In this document: piece by piece, positions 4,981 through 35,963 of the stretch
Numbering within the stretch: the stretch's first letter is position 1
How the letters are laid out: every line of letters begins with the position of its first letter
From: Thermus thermophilus
GTDB lineage: Bacteria > Deinococcota > Deinococci > Deinococcales > Thermaceae
DNA: 64,000 nucleotides
Assembly: GCF_019974155.1 (NCBI RefSeq)
Contig: NZ_AP025158.1
Location: 558,001 to 622,000 of the forward strand
Direction: 5' to 3'
Position numbers and translations under genes: made by a program
The notes under the pieces: model-generated
Databases searched by the model: none
Seen by the model: the letters and a program-made list of their open reading frames with translations, nothing else
What the model was told of the DNA's origin: nothing

Positions 4981-7416
4981 ATGGAAGGCATGCTCAAGGG
5001 CGAAGGTCCAGGCCCCCTTCCCCCTCTCCTGCAGCAGTACGTGGAGCTCCGCGACCGCTACCCGGACTACCTCCTCCTCTTCCAGGTGGGGGACTTCTAC
5101 GAGTGCTTTGGGGAGGACGCGGAGAGGCTGGCCCGCGCCCTCGGCCTCGTCCTCACCCACAAGACCAGCAAGGACTTCACCACCCCCATGGCGGGGATTC
5201 CCATAAGGGCCTTTGACGCCTACGCCGAGCGGCTTCTCAAGATGGGCTTTCGCCTGGCGGTGGCCGATCAGGTGGAGCCCGCCGAGGAGGCGGAAGGCCT
5301 GGTGCGGCGGGAGGTGACCCAGCTCCTCACCCCCGGGACCCTCACCCAGGAGGCCCTCCTCCCCCGGGAGGCCAACTACCTGGCCGCCATCGCCACCGGG
5401 GACGGGTGGGGTCTGGCCTTTCTGGACGTCTCCACGGGGGAGTTCAAGGGGACCCTCCTAAAGAGCAAAAGCGCCCTGTACGACGAGCTTTTCCGCCATA
5501 GGCCCGCCGAGGTCCTTTTGGCCCCGGAGCTACGGGAGAACGAGGCCTTCGTGGCCGAGTTCCGGAAGCGCTTTCCCGTGATGCTCTCCGAGGCCCCCTT
5601 TGACCCGGAAGGGGAAGGCCCCCTGGCCCTGAGGCGGGCCCAGGGGGCGCTCCTCGCCTACGCCCGGGCCACCCAGGGGGGGGCCTTGAGCGTGCGCCCG
5701 TTTCGCCTCTACGACCCCGGGGCCTTCGTGCGCCTGCCCGAGGCGAGCCTAAAGGCCCTCGAGGTCTTTGAACCCTTGCGGGGCCAGGACACCCTCTTCG
5801 GCGTTCTGGACGAGACGCGCACCGCCCCCGGAAGAAGGCTCCTCCAGGCCTGGCTCCGCCACCCCCTTCTGGAAAGGGGGCCCTTGGAGGCGAGGCTTGA
5901 CCGGGTGGAGCGCTTCGTGCGGGAGGGGGCCTTACGCGAGGGGGTGAGGCGCCTCCTCTTCCGCCTTGCCGACCTGGAGCGCCTGGCCACGAGGCTGGAG
6001 CTTTCCCGGGCAAGCCCCAAGGACCTCGCCGCCCTAAGGCGGAGCCTGGAGATCCTCCCCGAGCTTAAGGGCCTTTTGGGGGAGGAGGTGGGGCTTCCCG
6101 ACCTCTCCGGCCTTTTGGAGGAGCTTAGGGCGGCGTTGGTGGAGGAGCCGCCCCTCAAGGTCTCCGAAGGGGGGCTCATCCGGGAGGGGTACGACCCGGA
6201 CCTGGACGCCCTGCGGCGGGCCCACGCCGAGGGGGTGGCCTACTTCCTGGACCTCGAGGCCCGGGAGAAGGAGAGGACGGGCATCCCCACCCTCAAGGTG
6301 GGGTACAACGCCGTCTTCGGCTACTACCTGGAGGTGACCCGGCCCTACTATGGCCAGGTGCCCCAGGAGTACCGCCCCGTCCAGACCCTCAAGGACCGGC
6401 AGCGCTACACCCTGCCGGAGATGAAGGAAAGGGAGCGGGAGCTCTACCGCCTCGAGGCCCTCATCAAAAGGCGCGAGGAGGAGGTCTTCCTCGCCCTAAG
6501 GGAAAAGGCGAAAAAGGAGGCGGAGGCCTTGAGGGAGGCGGCGAGGATCCTCGCCGAGCTTGACGTCTACGCCGCCCTCGCCGAGGTGGCGGTGCGCCAC
6601 GGCTACACCAGGCCCCGCTTCGGGGAGAGGCTTCGCATAAGGGCGGGGCGCCACCCGGTGGTGGAGCGCCGCACCCCTTTCGTGCCCAACGACCTGGAGA
6701 TGGCGGGGGAGCTCGTCTTGGTGACGGGGCCCAACATGGCGGGGAAGTCCACCTTCCTCCGCCAGACCGCCCTCATCGCCCTCCTCGCCCAGATCGGGAG
6801 CTTCGTGCCCGCGGAGGAGGCGGAGCTTCCCCTCTTTGACGGGATCTACACCCGGATCGGGGCCTCGGACGACCTCGCCGGGGGGAAGAGCACCTTCATG
6901 GTGGAGATGGAGGAGGTGGCCCTCATCCTCAAGGAGGCCACCCCCAATAGCCTCGTCCTCCTGGACGAGGTGGGCCGGGGCACGAGCAGCCTGGACGGGG
7001 TGGCCATCGCCACCGCCCTCGCCGAGGCCCTGCACGAGAGGCGGTGCTACACCCTCTTCGCCACCCACTACTTTGAGCTCACCGCCCTCGCCCTTCCCCG
7101 GCTCAAGAACCTGCACGTGGCCGCCAAGGAGGAGGAGGGGGGGCTCGTCTTCTACCACCAGGTCCTCCCGGGCCCCGCCTCCAAGAGCTACGGGGTGGAG
7201 GTGGCGGAGATGGCGGGCCTCCCCAAGGAGGTGGTGGAGCGGGCCCGCGCCCTCCTCAGGGCCATGGCCGCAAGGCGGGAGGGGGTCTTGGAGGAGGTCT
7301 TGGAGCGCCTCCTCGCCTTAGACCCCGACCGCCTCACCCCCCTCGAGGCCCTGAGGCTCCTCCACGAGCTCAAGGCCTTGGCCCTGGGCCTCCCCCTGGG
7401 TAGCATGAAGGGGTGA
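4981..7416 (+). CDS. mutS: DNA mismatch repair protein MutS
   Basis: 811 aa, the length of well-studied Thermus MutS. I start at MEGMLKGEG (4981), which has GGAG 5 nt upstream, rather than at ATG 4957. Domain I holds the mismatch wedge G-D-F39-Y-E41, where Phe stacks on the mispaired base and Glu contacts it. The connector, lever and clamp domains follow. The ABC-type ATPase has Walker A GPNMAGKS (about 583-590), STFMVEM, Walker B LVLLDEVGRGTS (about 658) and the ATHYFEL switch His. The dimerising helix-turn-helix region follows. It finds mismatches and recruits MutL, encoded next with a 4-bp overlap. The IS ends 65 bp upstream, so its native promoter region may be altered. Confidence 0.98.
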   Translation: MEGMLKGEGPGPLPPLLQQYVELRDRYPDYLLLFQVGDFYECFGEDAERLARALGLVLTHKTSKDFTTPMAGIPIRAFDAYAERLLKMGFRLAVADQVEPAEEAEGLVRREVTQLLTPGTLTQEALLPREANYLAAIATGDGWGLAFLDVSTGEFKGTLLKSKSALYDELFRHRPAEVLLAPELRENEAFVAEFRKRFPVMLSEAPFDPEGEGPLALRRAQGALLAYARATQGGALSVRPFRLYDPGAFVRLPEASLKALEVFEPLRGQDTLFGVLDETRTAPGRRLLQAWLRHPLLERGPLEARLDRVERFVREGALREGVRRLLFRLADLERLATRLELSRASPKDLAALRRSLEILPELKGLLGEEVGLPDLSGLLEELRAALVEEPPLKVSEGGLIREGYDPDLDALRRAHAEGVAYFLDLEAREKERTGIPTLKVGYNAVFGYYLEVTRPYYGQVPQEYRPVQTLKDRQRYTLPEMKERERELYRLEALIKRREEEVFLALREKAKKEAEALREAARILAELDVYAALAEVAVRHGYTRPRFGERLRIRAGRHPVVERRTPFVPNDLEMAGELVLVTGPNMAGKSTFLRQTALIALLAQIGSFVPAEEAELPLFDGIYTRIGASDDLAGGKSTFMVEMEEVALILKEATPNSLVLLDEVGRGTSSLDGVAIATALAEALHERRCYTLFATHYFELTALALPRLKNLHVAAKEEEGGLVFYHQVLPGPASKSYGVEVAEMAGLPKEVVERARALLRAMAARREGVLEEVLERLLALDPDRLTPLEALRLLHELKALALGLPLGSMKG

Positions 7417-33117: not shown

Positions 33118-34983
<1,866 letters not shown>

Positions 34984-34995
34984 GTGTCCGGAAAT

Positions 34996-35050
34996 CTTAA
35001 GACCTTCTTAAGGAATTCTTAAGCTTAGATTTCTGGGTTTGTGGTAAAAA
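34996..35050 (+). promoter_or_regulatory. Three 11-bp phased CTTAAG repeats (Pho-box-like) and promoter
   Basis: CTTAAG occurs at 34996-35001, 35007-35012 and 35018-35023, exactly 11 bp apart, in an unusually AT-rich stretch. The units read T-CTTAAG plus 4 bp. The last unit sits at the -35 position of a possible -10 TAAAAA (35045-35050). Direct repeats with helical phasing are how PhoB/OmpR-family regulators bind, and TTAA-centred 11-bp repeats are known from cyanobacterial Pho boxes. The regulator here is unknown. Confidence 0.6.
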
Positions 35051-35055
35051 CCTCT

Positions 35056-35083
35056 CGGTAAGCCCCGCAACGAGGGCTTGCCG
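35056..35083 (+). other. 5'-UTR hairpin of the secreted-protein gene
   Basis: CGGTAAGCCC pairs with GGGCTTGCCG (one G-T wobble) around an 8-nt loop. AAGCAGGGAGG, the ribosome site, begins 1 nt after the stem. It may protect the 5' end or modulate translation. Confidence 0.5.
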
Positions 35084-35102
35084 AAGCAGGGAGGCAGTGA
35101 GT

Positions 35103-35963
35103 ATGAGGCGAGGAGTGCTTGCGCTCTTTTTCCTGGCCCTTTTGGTCTTGGCGCAACAGGTGAACCTGCCCAAGCCTTCTGGTCCCGTGGTGGAGGTGGC
35201 TTCCGAGACCGTGAGGGCCACCTTCAAGCTGCAAGGGTGCGCCAGGGACCAAGAGGGCAGGGTGGTTTGCGCGCTCCAGGTCCAGAGCACCGCCCAGACC
35301 AACCAGCAGGTCGTGGTGCTCCACCAGAGCGTGCGGGCCATCTCCGCCAGGGGGTTCAGCTACCCCGGGTACCTGAGCGCGGAGGGGGGGAGTGTGGAGG
35401 CCAACCGGAGCGTTTTCGCCCTTCCCGCCGCGGGTAGGGTTACTGCCAGGCTGGTGTTCCCCGCCGTGCCTGCGGAGGACAACTTCTTTGCGGCGGTGTA
35501 CGTGGGAGGGTTGGAGTTCCGGGGCATCCCCGTGGGCCAGGCGGCGGCCACCTCCCCAGCGCCTGCGCAACCTTCTGCGCAGGCCCAGGCCGGCCAGGAG
35601 GCGGAGCCTTGGAAGCGGTTCGTGGTGGGGCCTTTCACATTTGAGCTGGCTGGCGAGCCTTACTTCGAATGCTGCTATAGGGTAGTCTTGGTTTACAACG
35701 TGGTTTCCAGCCAGGACGCAAGTCTCCAGATGCGCTTCAATAGCACCCGCACCATCCTGGAAGGGGGGTTCCAAGCAACCCAAGGTTTTTTTGAAGTCAG
35801 CGGCGGCCGGTCGGACTTCCTCGCGGGTATTCCCCTAAAGGTATATGTCAACCTTTGGATTCCCAACGTGAATGCCAGCAAAATCCTCTACACGGAGTTT
35901 GAGGTCTTTGACGGGAAGGATTGGCAGAAGATCGTCTTCCGCAACATGCCCTTCAAGAGGTAG
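35103..35963 (+). CDS. Secreted protein of unknown function
   Basis: 286 aa from ATG 35103 (AGGGAGG 8 nt upstream; the GTG at 35097 is too close). Signal peptide residues 1-18, ending near VLAQQ. The mature protein is beta-rich, with a Cys pair (CARDQEGRVVC), an Ala/Pro/Gln linker (about residues 140-165) and a second beta domain containing FECCYRVV. No family is recognised. Codon use has more A/T-ending codons than neighbouring genes, especially after 35640. Phased repeats upstream suggest dedicated regulation. Confidence 0.75.
   Translation: MRRGVLALFFLALLVLAQQVNLPKPSGPVVEVASETVRATFKLQGCARDQEGRVVCALQVQSTAQTNQQVVVLHQSVRAISARGFSYPGYLSAEGGSVEANRSVFALPAAGRVTARLVFPAVPAEDNFFAAVYVGGLEFRGIPVGQAAATSPAPAQPSAQAQAGQEAEPWKRFVVGPFTFELAGEPYFECCYRVVLVYNVVSSQDASLQMRFNSTRTILEGGFQATQGFFEVSGGRSDFLAGIPLKVYVNLWIPNVNASKILYTEFEVFDGKDWQKIVFRNMPFKR

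Follow-up and report, generated by a model that had tools for sequence, protein, structure and literature searches.

What reads the three identical heptads that stand, exactly 11 bp apart, between metG and the gene for a secreted protein in Thermus thermophilus? An earlier note on this DNA, a stretch of 64,000 nucleotides (the window; contig NZ_AP025158.1, positions 558,001 to 622,000), took them as the binding site of a PhoB/OmpR-type regulator and suggested that the secreted protein is induced through a two-component system, perhaps by phosphate starvation. Our analysis separates these two ideas: we put at about 75% the probability that the repeats are an operator for an activator with an OmpR-type fold, one of a [GC]TTAA[GC]-N5 class, that would turn on the secreted-protein gene, and we reject control by phosphate.

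Three phased heptads and their promoter

The genes on either side lie on the same (forward) strand: metG at 33127..34983 and, at 35103..35963, the secreted-protein gene, whose 286-aa product bears a Sec-type signal peptide. The 119-bp intergenic stretch between the metG stop (34983) and the ATG (35103) carries TCTTAAG on the forward strand at 34995..35001, 35006..35012 and 35017..35023, each start exactly 11 bp from the last and the two spacers, ACCT and GAAT, 4 nt each, so that the context reads gtgTCCGGAAA TCTTAAG ACCT TCTTAAG GAAT TCTTAAG CTTAGATTTCTGGGTTTGTGGTAAAAACC. The CTTAAG hexamers first noticed at 34996, 35007 and 35018 are therefore exact, the preceding T extending each to a heptad, and the AT-rich island around them is equally real, with 37% GC between 34990 and 35060 against 69% in the window. 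This triad is a single occurrence in the 2.17-Mb genome: a search of that genome for further triads with up to 3 mismatches gave no second place, and even the pair CTTAAG-N5-CTTAAG is found at this locus only. When the 119-bp stretch was shuffled 20,000 times with its dinucleotides preserved, two CTTAAG copies at 11 bp appeared with a frequency of 5e-5 and the triad not once (0 of 20,000). CTTAAG alone is common, making up 18 of the 28 TTAA in the window, so the evidence rests on the phasing, and on conservation.

The secreted protein belongs to no family in Pfam or NCBIfam, and the AlphaFold model from its single sequence, mostly beta-strands, is of low confidence (pLDDT 50). Its orthologues follow metG in two other genomes, G006 (76% protein identity) and G005 (63-64%), and no regulator gene lies beside the window locus or these orthologues. 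A related N-terminal domain occurs in G009, where it is fused to RCC1-like repeats; because of its different locus (after polA) and those repeats we rejected it as an orthologue and treat it as a paralogue. The G009 fusion gene (L006, 1453 onward) is cut short by a stop in the contig.

Read by phase, the promoter of the window gene (genome G000) runs CTTAAG/CTTAAG/CTTAAG/ATTTCT, then 10 bp, then TAAAAA, the fourth phase (35029..35034, forward strand), assigned from the comparison of phased promoters, being degenerate here. In G005 the corresponding phases are CTTAAG/CTTAAC/TCTCAT/TGCTGG, then 10 bp and TATCTT; in G006, TTTAAG/GTTAAT/CCTCAT/TGCTTG, then 11 bp and TATATT; and before the G009 paralogue, GTTAAC/CCTCAA/GCTCAT/GCTCAT, then 10 bp and TAGACT, the GTTAAC overlapping the polA stop. 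TTAA-N7-TTAA begins 2 nt (G005) and 7 nt (G006) into the stretch after metG, and its shuffle probabilities in the three orthologous stretches are 0.006, 0.007 and 0.002. The arrangement has been kept at the orthologous loci, where two promoters of otherwise diverged sequence retain the 11-bp-phased TTAA. Divergence of the flanking sequence makes the phased elements appear to be under selection, in a comparison of two orthologous promoters whose second and third elements have diverged. To judge from these alignments, the triad very probably works as an operator.

The third heptad had been placed at the -35 position of a weak -10, which is only approximately right: the -10 is weak, as described, and its best candidate, TAAAAA (35045..35050, forward strand), lies 21 bp downstream of the third heptad and 10 bp past the fourth phase, with like geometry in G005, G006 and the G009 paralogue. 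A consensus scanner for sigma-70 promoters returned none at the window locus. Just past the putative -10, a stem-loop (35055..35084, forward strand; fold -22.5 kcal/mol, z -2.9) would stand at the 5' end of the transcript, ahead of the Shine-Dalgarno sequence GGGAGG (35089..35094, forward strand), and hairpins of unrelated sequence occupy the same place in the G005, G006 and G009 paralogue leaders. That the stem-loops of all four leaders start just past the putative -10 (z from -0.8 to -3.4, weak in G006) lends this choice of -10 some support; they are possibly mRNA-stabilising.

Phosphate promoters carry a different repeat

Phosphate starvation was the inducing signal first suggested. Pho boxes, like the triad, are direct repeats with an 11-bp period, and the cyanobacterial SphR boxes, CTTAACCT in three copies with 3-bp linkers, have a half-site close to CTTAAC/CTTAAG (PMC1906773). 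A Pho box, however, should recur before the pst and pho genes of the genus, and the promoters of pstS carry another repeat: TGAC-N7-TGAC in 17 of the 17 Thermus genomes examined, our own included (L148-L164), and a TTAA pair in 0 of the 17. The usual form, CTTGAC-N5-CCTGAC-N5-GTTGGC, is likewise an 11-bp direct repeat, with G for the central A of the TTAA class, and it is probably the Thermus Pho box. By family model the T. thermophilus genome has one pstS, in the pst operon, with its promoter at about C1:108500. The CTTAA-N6-CTTAA places of this genome are three—the window locus, the region between speA and a GGDEF gene, and the stretch before the sox genes—and none adjoins a phosphate gene; nor did we find a phosphate gene with a TTAA repeat. 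The earlier note had itself named absence of the repeats from phosphate genes as evidence against its proposal, and it is on the pstS comparison that we reject phosphate control of the window gene; we regard it as very improbable that the PhoB homologue binds the triad as a Pho box and that phosphate starvation induces the secreted protein. Some weak cross-binding between the TTAA and TGAC classes is nevertheless conceivable on sequence grounds, since the two are similar and SphR binds CTTAACCT (PMC1906773).

A class of repeats across Thermus

Over 27 Thermus genomes, CTTAA-N6-CTTAA occurs at 57 distinct places. Among the matches listed, CTTAA pairs number 62 strand-matches at the 11-bp spacing against a mean of 31 per spacing (spacings 0-30), an excess of about twofold over the genus, which implies that most isolated CTTAA pairs are background from codon usage; the excess itself is made up of orthologous sets. 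The reversed-pattern control gave 0, a value that is not decisive given that CTTAA and AATTC differ in background.

One such set lies between speA and the gene for a GGDEF protein, where 18 sequences read GTTAAG-N5-[GC]TTAAG, with fixed hexamers (their leading G lay outside the search pattern) and variable spacers. Most of these sites, among them the one in the T. thermophilus genome (GTTAAG-N5-GTTAAG, C1 about 259136; other examples in L016, L020, L029 and L101), are followed by N11, a -10-like CANNAT or CATCCT and, 6-7 nt on, the start codon, and a start codon so close behind the -10 suggests that the diguanylate cyclase transcripts are leaderless. A second TATACT lies farther down. In G018 the site persists though the sequence of the following gene is disrupted; a scan of genome contigs with the GGDEF protein showed that the site has been lost in T. 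composti and that the Meiothermus loci lack the repeat.

Other sets lie beside regulator genes. Divergent promoters between an OmpR-like winged-helix regulator and a secreted-protein gene carry the repeat in G002, G003, G008, G013, G015 and G023, with a diverged form in G016, and GTTCAG/GTTAAG repeats precede the genes of modules that join an AfsR-like winged-helix/TPR regulator to a TIG/S8 subtilase lipoprotein and a second lipoprotein (L090-L095, L072, L088). Of the 57 exact sites, 12 lie no more than 4 kb from a match to the BTAD/AfsR-like regulator profile, with 0.6 expected, against 2 of 104 control pairs at other spacings (G001-G003), although the linked sites, which trace back to about three orthologous sets, are not independent, so that the linkage test overstates its independence. 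From these comparisons, the triad would belong to a Thermus operator class, [GC]TTAA[GC]-N5 in tandem, that is distinct from the phosphate operator; in the literature searched we found no characterisation of such a class in Thermus.

Candidate activators

PhoB, CiaR and AfsR compensate for a poor -35 element by binding head-to-tail on one face of the DNA, the proximal phase lying some 10-11 bp upstream of a weak -10; AfsR sits slightly closer to the -10 than the other two. The window promoter can be drawn in the same way: activator monomers with an OmpR-type winged helix would bind head-to-tail, one per 11-bp turn and on one DNA face, and would recruit RNA polymerase to a promoter with a poor -35 and a weak -10, so that the secreted-protein gene would be transcribed under some inducing condition. 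Here the three phases farthest from the promoter hold the best heptads and the nearest is degenerate, an arrangement that fits an activator array. Binding, activation as opposed to repression, and the -10 are steps that we infer, and a repressor might act at the triad instead. As for the premise that OmpR-fold activators bind 11-bp direct repeats, it is well founded: CiaR (PMC3091779), SphR (PMC1906773) and the SARPs (PMC10936776) all have operators of this type.

Could the triad be chance, or part of an AT-rich promoter island without a specific regulator? The prevalence of CTTAAG among the TTAA of the window and the only about twofold enrichment of 11-bp pairs over the genus both lean that way, yet the exact triad is absent from the shuffles and phased TTAA recurs in the two orthologous promoters, and we consider this explanation very unlikely. 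The choice of activator within the operator reading is harder, and here a BTAD/AfsR-type protein and a response regulator other than PhoB are about equally likely, each a serious candidate that falls short of an even chance. A two-component regulator, as the earlier note had it, may act at the triad. Among the closest known operators is that of CiaR, an OmpR-family regulator of streptococci, which reads NTTAAG-N5-TTTAAG (PMC3091779) and is nearly identical to the triad in half-site and 11-bp spacing; the window has CTTAAG-N5-CTTAAG, with C for the first T of the second half-site. It differs in having three copies, the last of them 21 bp and not 10 bp from the putative -10 (ten bp past the last half-site stands TGGGTT, which is no -10). 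The distance from the end of a CiaR or PhoB box to the -10 is 10 bp, as it is for the fourth phase here. Nine genes of the T. thermophilus genome encode an OmpR-type DNA-binding domain, and the best response-regulator candidate, which has a histidine kinase as its partner, lies at G000:C1 about 380.9-381.6 kb; of the regulators in this genome, its recognition helix, VVDVYIGYLRKKL, comes closest to that of CiaR, VVEVYVSKVRKKL. Against this response regulator, likeness by recognition helix is a poor predictor of specificity, and there are no TTAA repeats before the candidate's own gene; indeed, no triad-like repeats were found before any of the genome's response-regulator genes.

The other candidate activator, a BTAD/AfsR-type (SARP-like) protein that joins an OmpR-like winged helix to TPR/BTAD domains, draws its support from the company that the repeats keep and from the form of SARP operators. 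The repeat class lies divergent from, or in modules with, such genes in G002, G003, G005, G008, G011-G016, G019, G023 and G024, sites that, coming from few orthologous sets, give less independent support than their number suggests. The operators of Streptomyces SARPs, such as the afs box of AfsR and the PimR heptads, are heptads on 11-bp repeats with 4-nt spacers, in two or, in PimR, three copies (PMC10936776, PMC5930380). The pattern of at least two heptads at an 11-bp period is present here as TCTTAAG-ACCT-TCTTAAG-GAAT-TCTTAAG, and the upstream AfsR repeat holds TTCAG, a sequence also present in the GTTCAG copies of the Thermus S8-protease modules. The heptad sequence itself differs. The 3' repeat of a SARP operator would be expected about 8 bp from the -10; here the third heptad stands 21 bp, and the degenerate fourth phase 10 bp, from a putative -10.

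A large protein universal in Thermus combines a MalT-like N-terminus and TPRs with a BTAD domain above the Pfam cut-off, and the winged-helix profile of the AfsR-like group aligns with the OmpR-type domain at E 1e-5; smaller members of that group, on the other hand, fall below the Pfam BTAD and Trans_reg_C thresholds, and the group profile, run against solved structures, gave spurious matches only and no SARP. BTAD-type activators do function in Thermus: DnrS activates the denitrification genes of T. thermophilus (PMC5748679), a different gene set, and in the sections of that report cited here its operator is not given as an 11-bp TTAA repeat. No gene of this type adjoins the window locus or its orthologues, linkage to a regulator gene being seen only in other species for this repeat class, and the sole BTAD gene found in the T. 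thermophilus genome (MalT-like/TPR/BTAD; L142:4986-7600, G000:C1 about 890985-893600), about 300 kb from the window gene, is frameshifted near codon 324 in the assembly. The frameshift may be an assembly error. The same gene is flanked on each side by a copy of a transposase-like ORF. That a Thermus BTAD/AfsR-like family reads a shared 11-bp-phased [GC]TT[AC]A[GC] code, with the triad as one of its targets, is a broader claim and, for now, a rather doubtful one.

Several observations on response-regulator genes stand apart from the question of the activator. Upstream of a minus-strand ORF of L059 that ends at 5858 (a response regulator beside TolC-like genes) are GTTAGA-N5-GTTAAG and GTAACC-N5-CTAACC, 11-bp repeats that are possibly autoregulatory. 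The frame of an OmpR-type response regulator in L053 (about 5250-5420; G000:C1 about 1743.3 kb) is broken at a G run, by either a true mutation or a sequencing error. Apparently the same response regulator/histidine kinase operon is present in L056 (G000:C1 about 1464-1468 kb) and in L057 (G000:C2, a 19-kb plasmid), with transposase-like genes adjoining both copies.

Implications

By the operator reading, the gene for the secreted protein appears to be regulated, and the operator is one of a class that is testable in a genus with few mapped regulators. The TTAA class links secreted proteins with c-di-GMP synthesis and with AfsR-like genes, and it stands apart from the strongly conserved repeat before pstS. 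While the operator is ordinary in kind, the pattern around the AfsR-like genes is the more interesting lead: if the family does read the shared code, a BTAD/AfsR-like network outside Actinobacteria would govern a leaderless diguanylate cyclase gene as well as secreted proteins and S8-protease/lipoprotein modules.
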